Source: Acidobacteriota bacterium (GTDB lineage Bacteria; Acidobacteriota; Blastocatellia; Pyrinomonadales; Pyrinomonadaceae). Taken from it: DNA of 64,000 nt. Shown here in pieces: positions 27,534 through 41,546 of this stretch (the first letter of the stretch is position 1; every line of letters begins with the position of its first letter). The stretch lies in the NCBI GenBank assembly GCA_003697135.1, contig RFGC01000047.1:62001-126000 (forward strand). The letters are read 5' to 3'. The notes under the pieces were generated by a model. That model ran no database searches. It saw only the letters and a program-made list of their open reading frames with translations, and had not been told where the DNA came from. Both the position numbers and the translations under genes were made by a program.

Positions 27534-28304
27534 TTAGCTATCTTCTTTTTTCTCCCTAACTAATTGAACGGAATAGCCATATAGATCGCTTCGGTAAAGC
27601 GAATGGACATACTCAACGGGTTTGTCTTCGTCCGTATAAACTGTTCTTTCTATCGAAAGAAGAGCGGTCCCTACGCGGACTTCCAGAACTTGTGCAACGT
27701 AAGGGTCTGCAAGTTCAGCTCTGATTTCTTGAATTGCTTTTTCCAAACGATAACCAAGTTTGGTCTCGACAGTGTGAAGTATTGCGCCACTTGAAAGCTC
27801 TGCCATTGTAAGCGCTGAGCCGATTTCTTCAGGCAAATAGTTGATAATCAATCCGAAAGGCTTGCCTTCGTATATCCTGAGTCTCTTTAACCTGTAAACA
27901 GTCGTTCCGGGTTTTATTCGCAAAAGTTCTGCTTCATGAATATCAGCCACAACTTTGTTCATCTCCAAAACCTTAACAGGCGTTTCCATGCCCATTTCGA
28001 TTAGCTCATCGAGCGAGCCGGTTAGATGGATGATTCCAGAAAACTTCCTTCTTCTTGTTTTTCGTGCCGCTACGACTGTTCCTCTACCTTGCTTTCTTTC
28101 TATCAAGCCTTCATCGGCAAGTGCTTGCAGGGCTTGTCGAACAGTTATTCTCGAAACTCCATACTGCTGAATCAATTCGTGTTCGGTCGGCAATCTATCG
28201 CCGGGTTCAAACTCGCCTGAAACTATCTTTTCACGCAAAAGATTTTCAAGCTGATAATAAAGAGGTATGCGTTTGTTCGCAAAAGCTTGTCTCTGTTTCG
28301 GCAT
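27534..28304 (-). CDS. GntR/HutC-family transcriptional regulator with UTRA domain
   Basis: This 256-residue protein has an N-terminal winged helix (about 12-80), with LYYQLENLLREKIVSGEF, PTEHELIQQYGVSRITVRQAL and EGLIERKQGRGTVV. A UTRA ligand-binding domain (about 95-245) has YRLKRLRIYEGKPFGLIINYLP and SIERTVYTDEDKPVEYVHSLYR. HutC-type regulators usually repress a nearby operon and release DNA on binding a small sugar or amino-acid-derived ligand. It is divergent from the GT4/WecG-type pair (126 bp apart), which is a possible target but not a typical one for this family. Confidence 0.9.
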   Translation of the reverse strand: MPKQRQAFANKRIPLYYQLENLLREKIVSGEFEPGDRLPTEHELIQQYGVSRITVRQALQALADEGLIERKQGRGTVVAARKTRRRKFSGIIHLTGSLDELIEMGMETPVKVLEMNKVVADIHEAELLRIKPGTTVYRLKRLRIYEGKPFGLIINYLPEEIGSALTMAELSSGAILHTVETKLGYRLEKAIQEIRAELADPYVAQVLEVRVGTALLSIERTVYTDEDKPVEYVHSLYRSDLYGYSVQLVREKKEDS

Positions 28305-30364: not shown

Positions 30365-31990
30365 TTAAGCCAAGTTCTTGATGGGAAACTCGATTTTTAC
30401 TCCGCCGATGCCGCTTTCCCAGCTTGCAAATTCACATGCTAAACATTCAATACATTTACCGCGTTCGGCTTCTTCTGGTTCGATGGCTAAAACTGGTAAG
30501 TTTCTTTCGCTTAATTTCAAAATCTTCGTCGGACATGACTCAACTATTTTTGCGGCGCTTTCGGTCGAAAAAACCGAATGATTGAAAATTATTCTTCCCG
30601 TGCGGGTTTTGAATTCGTAAAGCTTTGCATCCGCAGAGGTGCTAAAGAATGGCTTTGGAAGAGAAGAATCAAAAGCTCTTTCGTGGGTTTCTTCAAAGCC
30701 TTTTTCTGCCACAGCCTCAGAATTAGGAGTTACTTGATTTTGCTCGTTAATTTTAGCGCCTTGCTTCGAGGTGTTCTTACACGGCTGTTCAGATTGGTTT
30801 TTGTTGGATTCAAAAGCTTGAATCAAATCCTTCAATCTAGAAGCGCAAAATTCAGCCGAGTGTATTTTTTGGTAAGCTTCCATCGGTGCTGGTAAGAATC
30901 GGGCATATTTTTCGACAAGCTCTTTTGCCACTTCTTCGCCATTTCCGCCTAATCTCAAAACAGCAGGAATTTTGGGTTTTACTTCCAAGAAAGCCTTGAT
31001 GATCCCGCGCGCTAATATGAATTGTTCTTGACTGGCGACACCAGAGCCAGAGAGAAAATAGCCGCGAATTCCTGGGATTGAAAGAATTATTCGCGCAGCA
31101 CGGTAGATTTTGGAAGCTGGTGGACTGCCGCTGGTATCAACATAGCAAGCAGGTTTTAACCCGACTGCTTGAGCCGCGTCCAAAGATGCCATAGACCCAC
31201 CGCCGCCTGCACCGTGGAAACCTATTTTGATTTTTGATTCGTCCTCTTGCAAAATCTCTACAAAATAAAAAGTGCCTCTGTAGTCGTTTTTTTCGACTTC
31301 CCAAGCAATTTTCTCAAGTTTTGTCGGTGTATGACCTAATTCACGGGGAATTTCTATGGGCAAATCTGGATGTCTGAAAACGGCATAATCGTCAACGGAG
31401 ATTCTGCAATCTAGAGCAAAAATTTTACCGTTTTTCAGAAGTGCGAGCGGATTGATTTCTGCCGAACGCGCTTCGCATGATTTGGCGACTCGATAAAGTT
31501 TTTGCAAGACAGAAGCAATTCTTTCATCTGAGCAAATCTGCTTTATCTGCTGGATTTCAGGCTCTCGGCGAACCGAGCATACTAATTTCTTCGTTGTTTC
31601 AGCTCTTTCTTCAATTCCGCTTCCGCCGACTTCAGAGAAAATGAGAATCGGACGCTTCAAAACTGTGTCTATTATGAAGCCAAGATAGAATTCTTGTTCG
31701 ATTTCCAATTTTTCTTCAATCAGAACTGCTTCACAAAAATTTTCGCCGATGAGTTTTCCGAGCATTTCGCTTGTTACCCTTTTGGCTTCTTCAGGCGAGT
31801 TGGCAAATTTGATTCCGCCCTTTGCTGCTCTAGATGTGGAATGAATCTGAGCTTTTACAACTACCTTCCCGCCCAGGTTTTCAGCTACTTTGCTCGCTTC
31901 TTCAGCACTAAAAACAACCCGTCCACGCGGAGTTTCAATCCCGTGGGCACGCAGAATTTCTTTTGCTTGATATTCGTGTAGTTTTGCCAT
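30365..31990 (-). CDS. ATP-grasp acyl-CoA ligase (SucC / ATP-citrate-lyase-like) fused to a FixX-type ferredoxin
   Basis: This 541-residue protein has an ATP-grasp domain at about 1-235 that follows SucC from MAKLHEYQAKEILRAHGI onward. The ligase domain (about 240-395) has GAGGGGSMASLD (260-271), YVDTSGSPPASKIYRAARII and YFLSGSGVASQEQF. These are closer to the ATP-citrate-lyase/citryl-CoA-synthetase form than to ordinary SucC (NIFGGI). A low-complexity linker (395-455) leads to a ferredoxin-like end with Cys486-Pro and Cys513-x2-Cys516-x2-Cys519, then GGVKIEF, the layout of FixX. All four cluster Cys are present. The phospho-His partner subunit is not encoded nearby. It is last in a six-gene operon of tricarboxylate enzymes, so a tricarboxylic acid is the likely substrate (inference). 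Confidence 0.85.
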   Translation of the reverse strand: MAKLHEYQAKEILRAHGIETPRGRVVFSAEEASKVAENLGGKVVVKAQIHSTSRAAKGGIKFANSPEEAKRVTSEMLGKLIGENFCEAVLIEEKLEIEQEFYLGFIIDTVLKRPILIFSEVGGSGIEERAETTKKLVCSVRREPEIQQIKQICSDERIASVLQKLYRVAKSCEARSAEINPLALLKNGKIFALDCRISVDDYAVFRHPDLPIEIPRELGHTPTKLEKIAWEVEKNDYRGTFYFVEILQEDESKIKIGFHGAGGGGSMASLDAAQAVGLKPACYVDTSGSPPASKIYRAARIILSIPGIRGYFLSGSGVASQEQFILARGIIKAFLEVKPKIPAVLRLGGNGEEVAKELVEKYARFLPAPMEAYQKIHSAEFCASRLKDLIQAFESNKNQSEQPCKNTSKQGAKINEQNQVTPNSEAVAEKGFEETHERAFDSSLPKPFFSTSADAKLYEFKTRTGRIIFNHSVFSTESAAKIVESCPTKILKLSERNLPVLAIEPEEAERGKCIECLACEFASWESGIGGVKIEFPIKNLA

Positions 31991-32064: not shown

Positions 32065-32673
32065 CTAGAGCACCTTAGGCATCCATAGTGGTCGCTTGCT
32101 TTCGTATTCGGAAATTTGGTCTTGAAACTGCAAGATAAAACTTATATCGTCGAGTCCTTTGAGGAGTTTTTCACGCTTGAATTCATCTATTTCAAAAGAT
32201 TCGTTAAAACCGAAATCATCTGATATTTGCTTTGTCTGCAAATCAATTTCGAGTTCATAATGTTCGAGTGTTTCAGTTTTTTCAACTAGCGTTTTGATAA
32301 TTCCTTCGGGCAAGGTAACGAGTAGAAGCCCTACGTTGAAAGAATTGTTATAAAAAATCTCGCCGAATGAAGGTGCTAAGATAGCGCGAAAGCCGTAATC
32401 GAAAAGCGCCCAAGGAGCGTGTTCGCGTGAACTTCCGCTCCCGAAATTTTTTCCCGCAATCAGAATAGAAGCATCTTTGTATCTTTCCTGATTCAAGATA
32501 AATTCGGGATTTGGATTTCCGTTTTCGTCAAAGCGCCAGTCGTAGAAGAGAAAATTTCCAAATCCTGTTTTGTCAATTCTCTTCAAAAATTGCTTGGGCA
32601 GGATTTGATCAGTGTCAATATTCGGTTGGAAGATTGCAACCGCTTTTCCTTTGTGTTTTATGAATTTTTGCAT
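32065..32673 (-). CDS. leuD: Isopropylmalate/aconitase-family dehydratase, small subunit
   Basis: About 202 residues from ATG 32673, one base after the LeuC stop (TGA-G-ATG). The sequence is close to the bacterial LeuD pattern: DTDQILPKQFLKRIDKTGFG, FYDWRF and ILIAGKNFGSGSSREHAPWAL, the swivelling-domain loop that closes on the substrate. With LeuC it isomerises 2- to 3-isopropylmalate, or a related tricarboxylic acid. No leuA or leuB lies in the window. Instead the pair sits between MmgE/PrpD and the citryl-CoA-type ligase, so it may also serve that pathway. A longer frame reaching to 32844 would run inside leuC and is rejected. Confidence 0.9.
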   Translation of the reverse strand: MQKFIKHKGKAVAIFQPNIDTDQILPKQFLKRIDKTGFGNFLFYDWRFDENGNPNPEFILNQERYKDASILIAGKNFGSGSSREHAPWALFDYGFRAILAPSFGEIFYNNSFNVGLLLVTLPEGIIKTLVEKTETLEHYELEIDLQTKQISDDFGFNESFEIDEFKREKLLKGLDDISFILQFQDQISEYESKRPLWMPKVL

Positions 32674-32674
32674 C

Positions 32675-34081
32675 TCAATCCTTGAATTTCCAATTGCGAA
32701 TATCAACAAAATGACCTGCAATTGCGGCCGCTGCAACCATTGCAGGCGAAGCAAGATGCGTTCTTGAGCCGCGTCCTTGCCGGCCCTCGAAATTTCTGTT
32801 TGAAGTAGAAGCGCATCTTTCGCCCGGCTGAAGGTAATCATCATTCATTGCAATACACATCGAACAGCCAGAATGGCGCCACTCAAAACCAGCTTCCGTA
32901 AAAATCTTTGCCAATCCTTCAGATTCCGCTTGTCGTTTAACAGTTTCAGAGCCGGGAACAACGATTGCCTTGACTTTCGGATGCACTTTGTAGCCTTTTA
33001 CAACCTTAGCCGCTTCTCTTAAGTCTTCGATCCTTGCATTTGTGCAAGAGCCAATGAAGGCATAGTTGATGCTTATCTCTGTTATTTTTCTCGCAGGCTC
33101 TAAACCCATATATTCGAGTGCTCGTTGAAATGCTTGTTGCTCTAGCTCATTCTTTGCAGTTGAAGGATCGGGAATCTCATCATTTACGGAGATCACCATC
33201 GCAGGCGTCGTTCCCCAAGTAACCTGTGGTTCTATTTTGTCAGCTTCTAGCTCGAAAATTTTATCGAATGCAGAATCGTCATCGCTTTTGAGCGTTTGCC
33301 AGTAATCAATGGCTTTTTCCCAAAGTTCGCCTTTCGGAGCAAAAGGTTTGTCTTTCAAATAATCGAAAGTAACTTCATCGGGAGCGATTAGCCCTGCTCT
33401 AGCGCCTGCCTCAATACTCATGTTGCATACGGTCATGCGTCCTTCCATTGAGAGATTCTTGATAGCATCGCCTGCATATTCAATTACATAGCCATTAGCA
33501 CCGTCAGTGCCGATTCTGCCGATTATGTAAAGAATCAAGTCTTTCGCTGTTATGCCAAACCCAAGTTTTCCCGAAATTTTTATGAGCAAATTTTTTGATT
33601 TCTTCTGCAGAAGGCATTGAGTTGCTAAAACCTGCTCGACTTCGCTTGTTCCGATGCCGAAAGCTAATGCTCCGAACGCTCCATGAGTTGAAGTGTGCGA
33701 ATCTCCGCAGACAATCGTCATGCCGGGCTGAGTAAGTCCGATTTCCGGGGCGAAAACATGGACAATTCCTTGATTTTCGGTTCCTATATCGAAAAACTTA
33801 ACGCCGAATTCTTCGCAATTTTTGCGAAAGGTTTTTATCTGCAAATCGGCAAAGTAGTCTTTTATCGGCGAAAATATGTTCTTGGTTGGGACGGAATGAT
33901 CCATCGTGCCGATTGTCAAATCAGGCCGTCTTACCTTGCGATTGGATTTTCTAAGTCCATCGAAAGCTTGCGGCGTCGTAACTTCGTGAATCAAATGCAG
34001 GTCAATATAAATTATCGTGGGCTTTCCTTCTTCCTGATAAACAACGTGTGAATCCCAAATTTTGTCATAAAGCGTTCTCAT
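32675..34081 (-). CDS. leuC: Isopropylmalate/aconitase-family dehydratase, large subunit
   Basis: This 468-residue protein carries the aconitase-fold [4Fe-4S] ligands: Cys in [17 protein letters not shown] and two in [40 protein letters not shown] and [15 protein letters not shown] are typical of bacterial LeuC. The enzyme moves a hydroxyl group between neighbouring carbons through a dehydrated intermediate. Its start is 22 bp after the PrpD stop and its stop is one base before leuD. Motifs favour isopropylmalate, but the operon setting leaves another tricarboxylate open. Confidence 0.93.
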
Positions 34082-34103: not shown

Positions 34104-35501
34104 CTAGCTTTGCTCGACCTTGAAACTTTCAGGTTTAGAAACTAGCCGCATTAGTTCCGCAGTGTTTTCCAGAGATTCAAGGTTATAAATTGCCTCGAAA
34201 ACTTTTTGCTGTTGTTCTTTACTTAAAACACCTTCGGCCAGCACTTGGAATTTTTGCCTGAGTTCTTCTTCAGAAAGTTTATCTCTGGGATCGCCTTTCG
34301 GGTAGGCACGTTCTCGCTCTAGCTTTTTCCCATTTTTCAAATTTATAACGACCTTGCAAGGTTGCTCTGCCGGGAATCTGTCTTCAAAAGATGGTTCTAA
34401 AACTGCTCGGACTTTGGGAACGTTTTCTAGTATTTTTTCGTCCTTTAACGCTTCTTCAGTGAATTCATCGGGAGTGAGCTTTCGCCTGACGAGCGCCGCA
34501 GCAATGCAGTATGGCAAACTATGGTCAGCAGTTTCTCTTGAATCAATAATGTATTTCTTTTCGTCCGCCAAAATTTCAGCTGCACGCTTTAGTGTGTAAA
34601 TTTCTATTGATTCGATTTCATCAGGTTTTAAGTCATGTTCAAAAACTAAGTCCAGTGTTGCCGAAATCGGAGCATGTGTTAGGGCTTCCGACGGGAATGG
34701 TTTTATTGAACATTCAGTTATTTTGAATGTTTCTCCCAGTCCTTCGGTTAAAACTTCTGGTTTCCATTCCTCGCCTATGGAATCGAAGAGTCCTTCGCGC
34801 CCCTCGAAAATTGCTTTGGGAGCTTGGTAGCCTTTTTGAGCAAGAAGTGCCGCAAAGACGCCTGCTTCCGTTGCCATCGGGTCAACTGTGTTTTTCATCA
34901 TTGTCAAGGCGCCTGCGGTGACAGCGCCGAGCGTGATGCAATGAGAGCCGCTAATGCCTATAGCATTTGCTATCTGTTCGGCATTAAGACCGAGCATTTT
35001 TCCTGCGACAACCGGAGAAACAAAAGCTGTGAGCGTGGCATGATGGAGTCCTAATTCTCTTATGCCCGGAAAAGCGGCTTCCATAAGACGCATTTCTAGT
35101 TCGTAAGCTATGACAATCGCAGTTAGAAGGTCTTTACCGCTTCTTCCTTCGCGTTCACCGACGCAAAGCGCGGCAGGAAGCAAATCGCTTGGGTGGCTTG
35201 GGTCTTGTTTCCAGTAAACATCGTTGTAATCGAGCGCTCTTATTGCCACGGCGTTAATCAAAGAAGCACTGCGAACGTCGGTTTTAAGATTTGATCCTAT
35301 AACCGAGCATTCGGCATGCCCGCCTATTTCCCGAAAGACCTTTTCCAAAATCGCAAAATCTTTCGTTTTTGACCCGCCCAGAGCGCATCCGATGCTGTCA
35401 TAGAGAAACATTTTTGCCGATTCTATGGCTTCAGCAGAAAGATGTTCAAATTTCAATTCAACTGCGTATTCTGCCCAGATTTGAGAGATCGTTTTCTTCA
35501 T
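34104..35501 (-). CDS. MmgE/PrpD-family dehydratase
   Basis: About 465 residues from ATG 35501. MmgE/PrpD features are [16 protein letters not shown], a His/Asp-rich stretch [22 protein letters not shown] near the active site, [23 protein letters not shown], and the C-terminal [21 protein letters not shown]. The best known member dehydrates 2-methylcitrate to 2-methyl-cis-aconitate; others act on citrate, iminodisuccinate or cis-aconitate. Placement ahead of the LeuCD pair fits a dehydration/rehydration sequence on a tricarboxylic acid. Substrate is not determinable from sequence. Confidence 0.9.
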
Positions 35502-35558
35502 AAGGTTGTGACTTTCTCGAATTATCAAAATTTTCAGTAATCAGGGATTCATTAGCCA

Positions 35559-36122
35559 TCAAAAAGGTCTCTTTTTGCTAACCAAATCAAAGTCGATAAA
35601 GTCGGCGTGATGGAATATAACCGATTCACTTGAGCGAACCATTATGTCGCCTTCTTTCGAGTGTGTGGCAATTATATGAAGCACCTCTAAAGGTATGTTG
35701 CGTGCATAGCTCATTGCAACACCAACAAAAGGATGCCTCAAATGCTTGCCTCGTCCAGCTCTGGTTATCTCACCATTTCGTTCTTCATACTCGATCAGCT
35801 TTCCTACGTCTGCAAGCAAAGCTCCTGCAATCAAATAATCTTTGTTGAGTTTAATCCTGTCGCCATAGGCTTCTTTCAAGACATCTGCTATTGCGACACA
35901 CATTTTGCAGACCGTTCTAACATGCTCGATAAAAGTTATTTGGCAATTCTCAACGTGCACAGAGAAGGGAATCTCTTTAATTCTCTTAACTGTCCATCCA
36001 CCTTTCGTAATGGCGTCTTCCCATACAGCAATGGTTTTGTTTCTAAGGTCAGTGTCTTCTATCAGATTTAACTCAGGTATAGCTTCGACTATTTCCTCTT
36101 TCAACGTCGTTACAGCTTTCAT
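35559..36122 (-). CDS. HD-domain protein with altered metal dyad
   Basis: This 187-residue protein has an HD-fold layout: first His67 in FIEHVRTVCKMC, then AGALLADVGKLIEYEE where the defining His-Asp pair would lie, and later His residues at 127, 130, 149, 154, 171 and 172. The His of the dyad is Ala104 while Asp105 remains. HD enzymes hydrolyse phosphate esters; loss of this ligand suggests weakened or changed metal binding. GAGGATTT precedes the ATG. It lies between the citryl-CoA-lyase-like and PrpD genes in a tight operon, where a phosphohydrolase would be unexpected; it may be structural or regulatory. Confidence 0.8.
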   Translation of the reverse strand: MKAVTTLKEEIVEAIPELNLIEDTDLRNKTIAVWEDAITKGGWTVKRIKEIPFSVHVENCQITFIEHVRTVCKMCVAIADVLKEAYGDRIKLNKDYLIAGALLADVGKLIEYEERNGEITRAGRGKHLRHPFVGVAMSYARNIPLEVLHIIATHSKEGDIMVRSSESVIFHHADFIDFDLVSKKRPF

Positions 36123-36182: not shown

Positions 36183-36956
36183 TCAAGCTGGAAGTCTTTT
36201 TCCGAGTTCGCCTTCGTATTGATATTTTTCTACGTCAACGGTTTTCATGGGCGGGTTTTTTTCTTTTTCTTCGATTACATGGGCAATTAAACCCACAACG
36301 CGTGACATGATGAAAACACCATTGGCAAGTTTGGGAGGAAACCCCATCTCACAAAGCAAAGCAGCTATTGCTCCGTCGGCGTTTATTGGTAATTTCTTTC
36401 CGGTTTTCTCTGTGAGGACTTTTTCGATTGCTTTAGCTTGGGAGACAAACTTGCCTGCTAAGCCTAACTCTTCGGCAATTTGGAAAAGTTTGATTGTTCT
36501 CGGATCGGAGGCATGAAATCTGTGTCCAAAGCCTGATACTCGTTCGCCCTTAGCCTTGTAGCTTTCGATTAGTTTTTCTGCTGCCTGCATTTCCGATAAA
36601 TTCTCTTTTTCTTGCATCTCGACAGCTTTTGAGATGGCTTCCATTGAATCTTCTATCGCTCCGCCGTGATACTTGTTTATCGCTAAAATTCCTGCAGAAA
36701 CAGCACAGTTTAGACTGCCGCCAGTGTTTGCAACCGTCACTGCCGCAATTGTCGAGGGCGGACGAACGCCATGGTCTATAACCGAAATCATTATAGCTTC
36801 GAGCAACCGTGCTTCTTTTGAACTCGGAAGCCGCCCTAGTAAAACTAAAAAGACCACTTCTACCCAAGACAGCTTCCCTATCAAATCTTCTATGGGATAG
36901 CCTCGGATATAAATTTTCTCAGCCTCTACCCAAGAAATTGAAGTTTTTCTTTCCAC
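36183..36956 (-). CDS. Citryl-CoA-lyase-like protein (short citrate-synthase fold)
   Basis: At 257 residues this is about 60% of a full citrate synthase and has the length of stand-alone citryl-CoA lyases. Active-site residues are kept: His97 in INKYHGGAIEDSM, His145 in SGFGHRFHASDPR and Asp194 in PINADGAIAALLCEMGF. The NADG form resembles the lyase module of ATP-citrate lyase more than the NVDFYSG of citrate synthase. SVIDHGVRPPST (58-69) is also typical of that branch. It should split citryl-CoA, or a substituted citryl-CoA, into an acyl-CoA and an oxoacid, or run in reverse. It starts at GTG with AGG ten bases upstream and is first in its operon. Confidence 0.85.
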   Translation of the reverse strand: MERKTSISWVEAEKIYIRGYPIEDLIGKLSWVEVVFLVLLGRLPSSKEARLLEAIMISVIDHGVRPPSTIAAVTVANTGGSLNCAVSAGILAINKYHGGAIEDSMEAISKAVEMQEKENLSEMQAAEKLIESYKAKGERVSGFGHRFHASDPRTIKLFQIAEELGLAGKFVSQAKAIEKVLTEKTGKKLPINADGAIAALLCEMGFPPKLANGVFIMSRVVGLIAHVIEEKEKNPPMKTVDVEKYQYEGELGKRLPA

Positions 36957-37117: not shown

Positions 37118-40030
37118 ATGTCGAGAATTTCAAGTAAAGTTCTTGCGGCGATAATCATGCTGGTTTTTATCAGCAAGATTTTCGCTCAGGATGGAGCAGT
37201 TTTGAGCGGCACGGTGGTTGATGCAACTGGAGCAGTGATTGTAGGGGCGACAGTTAAGTTGCTCGATCTAGCTACAAATCGTGAGATTACGGCGGTAACC
37301 AATGGTGAGGGGAGGTATGAAATCACGGGCTTGCGTCCTGGTGCATATCGTCTTTCGGTGAGTAGTCAAGGTTTTGCTACTTCGGCAAGAAGTATTTTGA
37401 TTCTTGAAGGCACGAGACTAGAAGAGAATTTTACCCTTGCGCCTGGGGCTATCAGAGACGTAGTGACAGTCACGGCGGTAAGGGGAAGTGCACGAGTTGC
37501 AGTGGAAGTTCCGCAGACGGTGACGGTAACAACAAGCGAAGATATTGAACGTCAGCGACCACGTTCATCTTTCGAGGTAATAGAAAGAGCACCGAGTATA
37601 ATTGTTCGTGAGACAAATCCATCGCGAGAAAGACCGCGTCTTCGTGGACTAGATTCCAGCCGTTTGTTGATAGTCATTGATGGAGAGAGACTTAACAACA
37701 CAAGAACTGACCTACAAACAGGGCTTTCACCTTCGATAATTGACATAACACAACTAGAGAGCGCAGAAGTAGTTGCTGGGGCTGGTTCTTCTGTGTATGG
37801 GTCTGACAGCTTGGCAGGAACGATAAACTTTGTCACAAAAGGACCGACGCGTTCCGATAAGGGATTGCTTGTTGGTTTTCGTCTTGATGGGAACTATGCA
37901 ACAAATGGAAAGGTAAGAAGAGGAAGTGGAGTGTTAAACATAAGTAATGAGACCTTTGCATTTCGCTTTTTAGGTTCGATCTTTCGACTCGAAGACTACA
38001 ACATGGGCGGTCGCGCTATAACTCTTGATGAAGTGATAAGCCTTGGAAGATTTTTCACCAGTGTTCCTACCAGTTTACCGAGACCGAATGGGACTTTCAC
38101 AACCAATGGTCCCGGTAGCTATGCTATTTTTAGCATCCCAGAGAATGGAAAAATACTTTTCGGCGGCGGTAATGGGTATAACCTTCAATTCGATGCATGG
38201 TGGTTTCCCGCTGAAAACCACAATTTCCGCGGTCGCTACATAGGAAGTTTTCATAGCAATCTGCAAGATGCTTTTTCAGGACCTCCTTACGAGAGTCAGC
38301 AGAGGTTCAACGAATTTCGAGACTTCAGTAAATTCAGTTTACGCTACGAGGGTCTGAACGTATTGAGTTGGCTTCCGAGAGTTTCTGTGAATTTCTACAA
38401 TCAGAAACTTAGTTTCCCTCAGAACCAATACGACTATACGAATCAAGCTGTGAGTGCGGCTTTTCCAAACGGAAGCTATTCAGGCACTAACTTTACAGGA
38501 AATCCGTCTGTTTTTACAATGAGCGTTTACACTAGCAACAAAAACACTATAACAACCTTCAACATAGACGCTCAGGCAAACGTTCAGCCCTTCAATGGTT
38601 TGATCATCACTCTCGGCGGACAGAGGTTAAAGGATCAGTCCAGAGATGAATTTATTAGCTATGGTCTTATAGGGTTTGATCCAAATCGTCCTAATCTGTC
38701 CCCTAATCCTGTTACCTTCACTTATCTAGGTCAGAACTTTACGGCAAGAGGTTTGCAGTCAGGAGCAAGCTCTCCGAATACGGATTATGAGGATAGAGCT
38801 TTTTTCCTACAGGCAGAACTTGATCGGATTCGATGGTTGAGAATTTCTGCTGGATTTAGAGTTGATAATTGGAGAACTAAAGCAATGCCATCGAATACTT
38901 TCCCGCTGCAATTCGAGTTTGGAGTGCTGCAGGCGGCAATACCAGCAATTCAGGCTGATCCGGGACCTTTGGCTTCACAAGTAAGCGCGCTTCCAAAACT
39001 TTTAGCTCTTGCAGGTAGAACTGGCGAGATAACAACCAGCAAGACGAGTTTTACAGGAAACGTCGGCATAGTGTTAAGGTTACCCTTCGGCTTGAATCCG
39101 TATCTCAGGTATGGAACAAGCTATCGAGAACCTTCTTTGACAGAAAGATACATCATTCGCAACTTCCCAGCGTTTCCGGGTTTGGTCGCTATAGTCGTGG
39201 GTAATCCAAATCTGGAGCCTGAAAAAGGAAGAAATTACGATGTAGGTCTGAAGGTTCAAGGTAGATTCTACACAGGTAGTTTCGGATACTTCCGCAATGA
39301 CCTGAGAAACCTTATAATCTTTCAAATCCCTGCTTTTGGTAATATTTGCGTAGCTCCTAATCCAGCCATAGGATTGCTTCCGCTATCGCCGATATTTGCG
39401 CCGAGTGCGCCACCATGCCAGGTTGGTCAATCAGCTATAAGTTTTAACGGCAGAATAAATCAGGCAGTCAACGTTATTAGAGGGTTTGAAGGAACAGGAG
39501 AAGTAAACGTCCCACTTGGTAGATACGGTAGTTTGAATCCATTTGTTAGCTTTAGCGCTTTACATGGAACGAACAAATCTCCAACACCTTTGGATATATT
39601 CCGCTTGCAATACTTGCAAAGCTTGCCTAACAAACCCTTCGAGATAGGTGGTTCTGTTGATGACTTTCCTTTGGCTAACATAACGCCTTTTAGATTGATT
39701 GGTGGAGCACAGTTTATAGACAGAAGCGGGAGAATTTTCGTTGAGTATTCATTCCGTCATCAAGGAAGAGTTAGGAGAATAGCTCCGGGAACACTAACAG
39801 GCACAACTCTAGTTAATTATGGAACCTACGCTAGTTTGAATTCCTTCACGCGCCATGACATCAAAGGAGGTTACAGTTTCTCAACAGATAGAGGTAGAAT
39901 TTCGATAAATGCCGGTATAACTAACATCGGCAATAGACTTTATTGGGAGCACTTCCAAAACGCTCCAGCTCCCGGTAGAAGCTTTATATTCGGTGTTACC
40001 ACCGAAATATTCAACATTCTGAAGAGATAA
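37118..40030 (+). CDS. TonB-dependent outer-membrane receptor with carboxypeptidase-regulatory-like domain
   Basis: This 970-residue protein has a signal peptide (1-23, ending IFAQ). A CarboxypepD-regulatory-like beta domain follows (about 25-115: LSGTVVDATGAVIVGATVKL, GRYEITGLRPGAYRLSVSS). The plug is at about 120-240, with RPRLRGLDSSRLLIVIDGER and AGAGSSVYGSDSLAGTINFVT. A long beta barrel ends in an aromatic-rich strand (SFIFGVTTEIFNIL). It imports an unknown ligand across the outer membrane with TonB/ExbBD energy. AAGGAG lies nine bases before the ATG. It is divergent from the tricarboxylate operon and is followed by a terminator. Confidence 0.93.
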   Translation: MSRISSKVLAAIIMLVFISKIFAQDGAVLSGTVVDATGAVIVGATVKLLDLATNREITAVTNGEGRYEITGLRPGAYRLSVSSQGFATSARSILILEGTRLEENFTLAPGAIRDVVTVTAVRGSARVAVEVPQTVTVTTSEDIERQRPRSSFEVIERAPSIIVRETNPSRERPRLRGLDSSRLLIVIDGERLNNTRTDLQTGLSPSIIDITQLESAEVVAGAGSSVYGSDSLAGTINFVTKGPTRSDKGLLVGFRLDGNYATNGKVRRGSGVLNISNETFAFRFLGSIFRLEDYNMGGRAITLDEVISLGRFFTSVPTSLPRPNGTFTTNGPGSYAIFSIPENGKILFGGGNGYNLQFDAWWFPAENHNFRGRYIGSFHSNLQDAFSGPPYESQQRFNEFRDFSKFSLRYEGLNVLSWLPRVSVNFYNQKLSFPQNQYDYTNQAVSAAFPNGSYSGTNFTGNPSVFTMSVYTSNKNTITTFNIDAQANVQPFNGLIITLGGQRLKDQSRDEFISYGLIGFDPNRPNLSPNPVTFTYLGQNFTARGLQSGASSPNTDYEDRAFFLQAELDRIRWLRISAGFRVDNWRTKAMPSNTFPLQFEFGVLQAAIPAIQADPGPLASQVSALPKLLALAGRTGEITTSKTSFTGNVGIVLRLPFGLNPYLRYGTSYREPSLTERYIIRNFPAFPGLVAIVVGNPNLEPEKGRNYDVGLKVQGRFYTGSFGYFRNDLRNLIIFQIPAFGNICVAPNPAIGLLPLSPIFAPSAPPCQVGQSAISFNGRINQAVNVIRGFEGTGEVNVPLGRYGSLNPFVSFSALHGTNKSPTPLDIFRLQYLQSLPNKPFEIGGSVDDFPLANITPFRLIGGAQFIDRSGRIFVEYSFRHQGRVRRIAPGTLTGTTLVNYGTYASLNSFTRHDIKGGYSFSTDRGRISINAGITNIGNRLYWEHFQNAPAPGRSFIFGVTTEIFNILKR

Positions 40031-40053
40031 GGAAAAAGAATCCGTAAGGAGAG

Positions 40054-40082
40054 GAGCTTCCCAACCGGGAAGCTCTTTTTTT
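40054..40082 (+). terminator. Intrinsic terminator of the TonB-dependent receptor gene
   Basis: GAGCTTCCC and GGGAAGCTC form a perfect 9-bp stem around AACC, followed by seven T. It begins 23 bp after the receptor stop. Confidence 0.92.
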
Positions 40083-40103
40083 GGATTTCGAGACTTGAGA
40101 TAT

Positions 40104-41546
40104 ATGAGAGTATCGAGACGTAGGTTCTTGTCAAGCATTTTAGCACTTCCTTTTGTCGGGCTATTTAAGCCTGCAAGAAGCGTTTTAGTGCTCGGGGCAG
40201 GGCTTTCTGGATTGTCTGTCGCTTATGAACTTGCTTTGAGAGGTTACAAAGTAACTGTGATTGAAGCTCGTGATTATGCAGGCGGTAGAGTCTTCACACT
40301 TCGTAAGCCTTTCTTGAATAATCAGTATGTCGAACTTGGTGGTGAACTCATTGGTGATGGTTACAAACGATTCTTGAAATACGCTAAAGACTTTTCAATC
40401 GAGTTTGAAGAAAATCAAAACCCAGTAGAAACGGGCGGAAGCGTAGCTAATCCTCAAAGAGGCATTACTTCTTCAGCTATTTTGAAGGGAAGGCTTTTTG
40501 CAGTTGGGACAATACTGAATGAAAATCCCTATGGCCTACCTGAAAAAGAAACAATGGATTTGCCGCCTGCAATTTTGTTTAGGCACATAGCAAGTGTCGT
40601 ATCAGAACTTCGCACCAATCCGTCGAAAATTTTCGATTACGATAGGTTGTCTTTAGCAGATTTTCTGAGAAAGCGCGGAGTCTCTGAGCAGATGATAAAG
40701 CTCATGAATATCTCGCTGAATTACAATTCAATTGAGACTGTTTCAATGGGCGGAGTTCTCTGGGATGCAGTGAGAAGAGTTTCTGCAGGAACGAAACCGA
40801 TCCAAATCATTGGTGGTAATGACAGGATAACGAAAGCATTGTTTGAGAATAGTGTGAGACTTGGGGTCAAGTTTATTTTCCAAGCTGAGGTGAAGCGAAT
40901 TTCTCAGAATCCGTCGTCGGTGAGGGTGTCTTTCCTGAAGAACGGTAAAGTCGAAACTGTAGAAGCCGACAAAATCGTTTGCACGATTCCTTTTTCGGTT
41001 CTAAGAGAAATCATTTTTGAGCCGAATTTGCCTGAATCGAAAGCAAAAGCTATAAATGAGCTTGCTTACACGAGGATAACGAAAGTATTTCTGCAAGCAG
41101 AACGTGCCGCTTGGGATGAAAGAAATTTGGGAGCGGCTATTTGGACGGATACACCTTGTGAGAGAATCTTTAATTCGGCTGGTAAAAAGGGCGATAAATT
41201 TGGCATTTTCACGATATGGACTGAAGGCGCAGGAGCGGAAATCCCTGAAAGCATGAATGACAGGGAAAGAATTGTCTGGGGCCAGAGAGAGTTTGTCAAG
41301 GCTTTGCCTTTCATGAAAGGCCGAATCCAAAGGAGAGCCACCAAGTCTTGGACGCTTGATAAGTATGCGCGTGGAGCTTATGCTCATTTTAAGGTTGGAC
41401 AGCTTGCAAGTCTTCAGCCTTTTTTGAAAACACCTGTTGGCAGGATTCACTTTGCAGGAGAACACACAGCCGAAAAAATGCCGGGAATGGAGGGCGCTTT
41501 GGAATCGGCAGAAAGAGTAGTTGCAGAGATTGATTCTGGAGGTTAA
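40104..41546 (+). CDS. FAD-dependent amine oxidase (flavin monoamine oxidase family)
   Basis: About 480 residues from ATG 40104. A Tat-like leader (SRRRFLSSILALPFVGLF) precedes the dinucleotide-binding motif VLVLGAGLSGLSVAYELALRGYKVTVIEAR, so the enzyme may be folded with FAD and exported. GGRVFTLR and the C-terminal IHFAGEHTAEKMPGMEGALESAERVV complete the flavin site. Family members oxidise primary or secondary amines to aldehydes or imines, giving H2O2 and ammonia; the substrate is unknown. It follows the receptor terminator by about 20 bp. The copper-amine-oxidase-like gene 1.4 kb downstream may belong to the same theme. Confidence 0.88.
   Translation: MRVSRRRFLSSILALPFVGLFKPARSVLVLGAGLSGLSVAYELALRGYKVTVIEARDYAGGRVFTLRKPFLNNQYVELGGELIGDGYKRFLKYAKDFSIEFEENQNPVETGGSVANPQRGITSSAILKGRLFAVGTILNENPYGLPEKETMDLPPAILFRHIASVVSELRTNPSKIFDYDRLSLADFLRKRGVSEQMIKLMNISLNYNSIETVSMGGVLWDAVRRVSAGTKPIQIIGGNDRITKALFENSVRLGVKFIFQAEVKRISQNPSSVRVSFLKNGKVETVEADKIVCTIPFSVLREIIFEPNLPESKAKAINELAYTRITKVFLQAERAAWDERNLGAAIWTDTPCERIFNSAGKKGDKFGIFTIWTEGAGAEIPESMNDRERIVWGQREFVKALPFMKGRIQRRATKSWTLDKYARGAYAHFKVGQLASLQPFLKTPVGRIHFAGEHTAEKMPGMEGALESAERVVAEIDSGG

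Follow-up and report, generated by a model that had tools for sequence, protein, structure and literature searches.

The minus-strand gene at 30365-31990 of the window (the whole 64,000-nt stretch of Acidobacteriota DNA analyzed here) is a single open frame encoding one 541-aa protein, here called SucC-Fd, in which a CoA ligase and an apparently intact [4Fe-4S] ferredoxin domain are joined in one chain, as the earlier note on this sequence had claimed. Such ligase-ferredoxin fusions are found in about 15 phyla, within a fixed operon, and one clade seems to have reduced the two clusters to one. With middling confidence, SucC-Fd is proposed to be the beta subunit of an ATP(ADP)-dependent CoA ligase/lyase system for a tricarboxylate (citrate or a homologue, e.g., homocitrate), in which the Fe-S domain sets assembly or activity by redox state or oxygen, and is not a FixX-style carrier. 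CoA ligases of the SucC/citrate-lyase superfamily stand where oxidative and reductive TCA chemistry part ways; a built-in Fe-S domain would be a direct redox switch at this branch point, or an assembly ferredoxin like that of archaeal RNA polymerase.

The fusion protein and its distribution

The open reading frame, coordinates, and Cys numbering of the earlier note are correct, and the strand is minus. The protein begins with a ligase domain (residues 1-392; 30815-31990) consisting of an ATP-grasp and a CoA-ligase-type half, recognized by Pfam as ATP-grasp_2/SucC (E 4.9e-41, 141 bits), by structural alignment to chains of SucC, citryl-CoA synthetase (CCS), and ATP-citrate lyase (ACL), and by invariant columns. 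It is followed by a disordered linker (residues 393-455; 30626-30814), variable in length among homologues, and by a ferredoxin-fold domain (residues 456-541; 30368-30625). A full-length AlphaFold2 model built from 60 homologues (mean pLDDT 88.7, pTM 0.84) has a body resembling SucC, a linker predicted to be unstructured (pLDDT about 40-50 in the core region, and below 50 at 404-421 and 423-440), and a compact domain over 456-541 at pLDDT about 95. Structure prediction, which the earlier note had proposed as a check, therefore gives a confident ferredoxin fold, in keeping with Fer4-type matches in relatives and with fold matches. The succession of a SucC-type ligase domain and a linker was likewise seen rightly, with the boundary now at 392.

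The ligase body aligns best with Thermus SucC (PDB 3ufx; Z 29.5 over 358 residues, 2.5 Å), then with the CCS large subunit (Z 26.7) and ATP-citrate lyase (Z 25.2). K46, N180, D194, and the loop GSGVASQEQ (315-323) are invariant or conserved in the family. By its predicted fold, and by the catalytic, Mg, and ATP residues present in its sequence, SucC-Fd belongs to the SucC/CCS/ACL superfamily.

Four cysteines are predicted [4Fe-4S] ligands: Cys486 (30533-30535), followed by Pro, which is the last Cys of motif I, and Cys513-x2-Cys516-x2-Cys519 (30434-30454), the first three of motif II. All are invariant in the 81 of 81 homologues aligned, in agreement with the claim that the four likely ligands are kept. 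From the computed fusion, predicted fold, and ligand conservation we infer that SucC-Fd binds [4Fe-4S] cluster(s).

A frameshift, misjoin, misassembly, or chance as the source of the fusion is ruled out by its recurrence. The same architecture was found in 7 of 60 relatives, and a scan of genome contigs (234 relatives found, 80 kept) yielded 75 distinct fused homologues from about 15 phyla, which also answers the search for the same fusion in other genomes suggested earlier. By record titles, these phyla include Acidobacteriota, Chloroflexota, KSB1, Aminicenantes, Cloacimonetes, Marinimicrobia, WOR-3/Hydrothermota, Zixibacteria, Gemmatimonadota, Calditrichota, Deinococcota, Coatesbacteria, and others. 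Within the Acidobacteriota the fusion is present in 31 of 396 genomes, where copies are full length save at contig ends and in one copy with an in-frame TGA. Purifying selection acts on the ligase part as well as the ferredoxin part (dN 0.18-0.34, dS being saturated).

The copy with the in-frame TGA (L163; G390:C53:4973-6514) has this codon in place of the third Cys of CxxCxxC, where its relatives have TGC; it may be a sequencing error, a nonsense mutation, or selenocysteine.

The earlier note knew of no described enzyme with this combination, and none was found in the literature searched, which included few subscription journals, or in the family libraries searched. Publications on Type II ATP-citrate lyase, in the passages covered, do not mention a ferredoxin domain, and a plasmid search had only ordinary SucC and malate-CoA ligases among the matches listed. 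No NCBIfam or Pfam model was encountered that sets the family apart from SucC; genomes may therefore be mis-scored for citrate cleavage or for succinyl-CoA synthetase.

Ancestry of the ferredoxin domain

The domain had been assigned to FixX, with a link to electron-transfer flavoprotein (ETF) and ETF:quinone oxidoreductase. There is a resemblance: the window protein has the CP...CxxCxxC ligand order and a short C-terminal strand, GGVKIEF, reminiscent of the GVEF of FixX. The assignment is nevertheless not borne out. Local alignment to E. coli FixX scores 38, a value reached by 64 of 1000 Cys-fixed shuffles, so there is no significant sequence relation, and profile comparison (hhalign) gives an 18-column match that is out of register, at 43% probability. 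The genomic context also differs: no ETF or fix genes were recognized in the operon, and the single ETF-alpha match in the genome is on another contig (C14). Most of the family, moreover, has eight cysteines in this domain. Derivation from FixX, with the ligase linked to ETF and its quinone oxidoreductase, is thus hardly credible.

The eight-Cys pattern points elsewhere. In 69 of the 75 distinct homologues the domain reads C-x2-C-x4-C-x3-C ... C-x2-C-x2-C-x3-C, as in 2[4Fe-4S] ferredoxin domains of the OorD/KorD type and the Fer4 families. In 2[4Fe-4S] ferredoxins, three ligands of each cluster come from one Cys motif, and the fourth is the final Cys of the other motif. The domain in the window has four Cys in place of eight, but those it keeps (Cys486 of motif I with Cys513, 516, and 519 of motif II) are exactly one ligand set. 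In its clade the other set is gone, except that L048 has a single orphan Cys. In a midpoint-rooted tree built from the ligase part alone, the four-Cys form is a single change, on a branch uniting seven Pyrinomonadaceae-type sequences (99% SH-aLRT); the direction is taken to be loss and not gain, because the eight-Cys form is found in all other phyla. The prevalence of eight Cys, together with their loss in a single clade, accounts for the FixX look: judged from its sequence, the window domain is a reduced 2[4Fe-4S] ferredoxin, in which the cysteines expected to bind one cluster were lost once in the Pyrinomonadaceae clade.

Library searches agree with this for the family, if not for the window domain itself, which has no Pfam match at E 0.1 or better: Fer4_9 (Pfam) matches 59 of 66 relatives, and OorD, among the commonest NCBIfam matches, 55 of 66. 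The best PDB profile match of the ferredoxin part is the ferredoxin subunit of 2-oxoglutarate:acceptor oxidoreductase (E 0.0056). An isolated model of the domain (mean pLDDT 84) matches formylmethanofuran dehydrogenase, the delta subunit of PFOR, APS reductase, and simple ferredoxins at Z 5.5-7, while the top Foldseek matches are Rpb3-type subunits of plant Pol IV/V. No FixX chain is among the fold matches listed.

Operon, partner genes, and substrate

In the window, SucC-Fd is the last of six genes, all on the minus strand. The first encodes a 257-aa homologue of citryl-CoA lyase (CCL; 36183-36956; NF004869, 279.8 bits against a cut-off of 212), with the catalytic DHG and GFGH motifs kept. 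Then come a 187-aa HD-domain protein that is a conserved member of the module (35559-36122; Pfam HD, 9.6e-10), a 474-aa MmgE/PrpD-family dehydratase (34104-35528; by Pfam), found as a module member in Acidobacteriota and KSB1-type loci, and the large and small subunits of 3-isopropylmalate dehydratase, LeuC (32675-34081; TIGR00170, 784 bits against a cut-off of 560) and LeuD (32065-32673; start placed at Met58 of a 259-aa ORF, with TIGR00171 matching over residues 58-244). This LeuC (within 32065-34081) is the only LeuC-type protein in the genome, and leucine synthesis may therefore depend on the operon.

For the counts of neighbors, 55 loci were used in which the sequence continues for 4 kb or more past the downstream end of the fusion. 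Of these, 52 have a SucD-type alpha subunit gene after the fusion (within 400 bp in 48), CCL is present in 43, the HD protein follows the lyase in 36, and 32 have a PrpD, aconitase-type, or isocitrate-type gene. The typical order is SucC-Fd, SucD, CCL, HD, and then AcnL-AcnS and/or PrpD with an isocitrate-type dehydrogenase. In several Anaerolineae (L078, L085, L089, L092, L095, L113), SucD and CCL form one protein of 565-604 aa. The phospho-His motif of SucD is kept in relatives, as are the His motifs of CCL, and the SucD of the window genome has SHAGA.

The window genome (G000) has its dedicated SucD away from the fusion, on another contig (G000:C20:96978-97874). This protein is 74% identical to the neighbor of the fusion in a genome of the same genus (G001), where SucC-Fd and SucD are adjacent and WecG, GntR, and TPR genes adjoin a relative of a gene on C20. 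Between the two genomes the joins are exchanged: one breakpoint separates SucC-Fd from SucD, and the other separates the WecG gene from a gene now on C20 (28431-30365; G000:C20:92770-97874). The cause is either a reciprocal rearrangement or a join made in assembly. A GntR-type regulator gene at 27534-28304 (minus strand) has homologues adjoining SucC-Fd in L036, L037, L051, and L103 but not in same-genus G001, and its link to SucC-Fd is uncertain.

Two known systems are similarly composed. CcsA, the CCS large subunit of Hydrogenobacter (PDB 6hxq), has the same fold and the same GGGGS and GNPP-type motifs in its acyl half, and acts together with a citryl-CoA lyase and a small subunit of the SucD type; its 429-residue chain is only about 28% identical to SucC-Fd, differs in its substrate loop, and is without a ferredoxin domain. 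ATP-citrate lyase (AclA/AclB, PDB 6hxj; human ACLY) likewise combines SucC-type, SucD-type, and citrate-synthase-like lyase parts, and the SucD-CCL fusion of the Anaerolineae has the AclB architecture. Against this, the SucC-Fd system has a separate CCL in most lineages and the extra ferredoxin domain, and identity is 19-26%. A search of 20 fusion-bearing genomes detected no separate ATP-citrate lyase.

A ligase for succinate or malate, i.e., an ordinary SucC paralogue beside which CCL is incidental, is another reading. SucC beta subunits share the ATP-grasp fold and the catalytic residues, and the whole-domain profile score is highest for the Thermus protein. But SucC-Fd scores below the SucC equivalog cut-offs (NF001913, 218.7 bits against 370; TIGR01016, 217.4 against 375.55) and that for malate-CoA ligase in NCBIfam (168 against 604), has another acyl-binding loop as well as the ferredoxin tail, shares GGGGS and GNPP-type motifs with CCS, and is encoded in a genome that has a separate canonical SucC. 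Nor does the CCL gene look incidental, given its place beside the fusion at most of the loci counted and its fusion to SucD at some. A succinate or malate ligase is accordingly very unlikely.

CCL and dehydratases beside SucC-Fd fit a tricarboxylate substrate, but the acyl half does not settle which one. With its consensus as query, the first PDB match is CCS (69 bits, against 63 for SucC); with the family profile the two are tied (SucC 61, CCS 58). The substrate loop GSGVASQEQ is invariant, where CCS reads GGTANNT and E. coli SucC GGIVRC. The corresponding citrate-binding loop of ACLY is ...ANFT. The ...ANNT of CCS is not present in SucC-Fd, which has an invariant ASQEQ at 319-323, and since the loop is unlike that of either CCS or SucC, citrate itself is not certain. 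In Zixibacteria and Gemmatimonadota, operon proteins of about 650 aa pass the homoaconitase equivalog (670-743 bits, cut-off 530) and not that for aconitase (L118:13229-15184, L097:15637-17595, L111:14183-16111). The operon dehydrogenase leans toward homoisocitrate dehydrogenase in NCBIfam, below the cut-off, and toward isocitrate dehydrogenase in the PDB. The loop and the homoaconitase scores together lead to the wording used here, citrate or a close homologue, possibly homocitrate.

In a more specific form of this idea, the operon would encode a widespread ferredoxin-tailed CoA ligase/lyase pathway for homocitrate or another homologous tricarboxylate X: acetyl-CoA and a 2-oxoacid would be interconverted with X-CoA, and X-CoA with X plus ATP, followed by homoaconitase- and homoisocitrate-dehydrogenase-like steps, with the redox state of the cluster setting the direction (synthesis with ATP gain, or ATP-driven cleavage). 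This is rather improbable as a whole. The literature searched, which included few subscription journals, had nothing on homocitryl-CoA. Lysine biosynthesis by the alpha-aminoadipate route is rejected as a general role, since just 2 of 22 genomes have a LysX that scores over the cut-off. Replacement of citrate synthase by the operon is not general either: an ordinary full-length citrate synthase is present in 20 of 24 genomes with the fusion, while three show only a short lyase.

The surroundings of the module vary. In the Anaerolineae loci L085 (6674-8995), L078, L089, and L095, genes of the ADP-ribosylglycohydrolase family and repeated paralogues (clusters c7, c22, c28, c35) adjoin the fusion. 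In Pyrinomonadaceae (37118-41546 in the window; L033, L034, L035), the module adjoins genes for a DUF1838 protein and a glyoxalase/dioxygenase-family protein, as well as a divergent large receptor-like gene and an FAD amine-oxidase-like gene, the last two named by eye. These flanking genes suggest a catabolic context there.

Possible roles of the iron-sulfur domain

From the computed operon, partner genes, and catalytic motifs, we infer the substrate class, the direction of reaction, and a gating or assembly role for the cluster. In the proposed mechanism, SucC-Fd would pair with its dedicated SucD-type alpha subunit, which carries the phospho-His; the pair would form or consume a CoA ester whose acid is citrate or a near homologue, with ATP (or ADP); the CCL homologue would reversibly split this ester, giving acetyl-CoA plus a 2-oxoacid; and the free acid would be handled by the operon's PrpD/aconitase-type and isocitrate-type enzymes. 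Through the [4Fe-4S] cluster (putatively two in most relatives, one here), redox state or oxygen would set assembly or activity of the complex.

One alternative is that the domain is a true electron carrier, passing electrons to or from a redox enzyme such as a 2-oxoacid:ferredoxin oxidoreductase, so that acyl-CoA and reduced ferredoxin are channeled together. The family's dicluster pattern, its OorD matches, and the solved-structure profile match to an oxidoreductase subunit are what such a carrier might be expected to have, and conservation is strict for the cluster motif that is kept and for its acidic surroundings. On the other hand, neither a ferredoxin-using oxidoreductase nor any other conserved redox partner was found in the operons across the loci compared, the ligase reaction is non-redox and needs no electrons, and the window clade has dropped one of the two clusters yet kept the operon. 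For these reasons it is unlikely that the enzyme requires the cluster as a relay, and the carrier role as a whole seems unlikely.

As a further possibility, the domain might be purely structural, a folding or docking module that holds SucD, CCL, or the HD protein without sensing redox state. The model for this is archaeal Rpo3, an RNA polymerase subunit whose ferredoxin-like domain, with one or two clusters, has an experimentally supported role in assembly; in Methanosarcina acetivorans (M. acetivorans) the Rpo3 clusters affect assembly after the heterodimer stage and are dispensable for viability (PMC5300874). The host enzymes are unrelated, but in both cases the domain is carried by a subunit with non-redox chemistry, both families have one- and two-cluster forms, and the Rpb3-type chains that head the Foldseek matches are of this kind. 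One argument against a purely structural domain is that motif II (GKCxECLACE) is conserved beyond the seeming needs of a plain docking fold. This reading is possible but not probable.

In the reading preferred here, in which the cluster sets assembly or activity, archaeal Rpo3 serves as the precedent for an assembly role, and redox gating of the ligase is possible. An oxygen-sensor role is not specifically favored, since the domain is retained both in lineages that have a COX1-type oxidase and in lineages that do not. Oxygen is also rejected as an explanation for the cluster loss, as this oxidase occurs in both groups and does not discriminate between them: it is encoded in all five of the reduced-clade genomes and in 10 of the 17 with the eight-Cys form.
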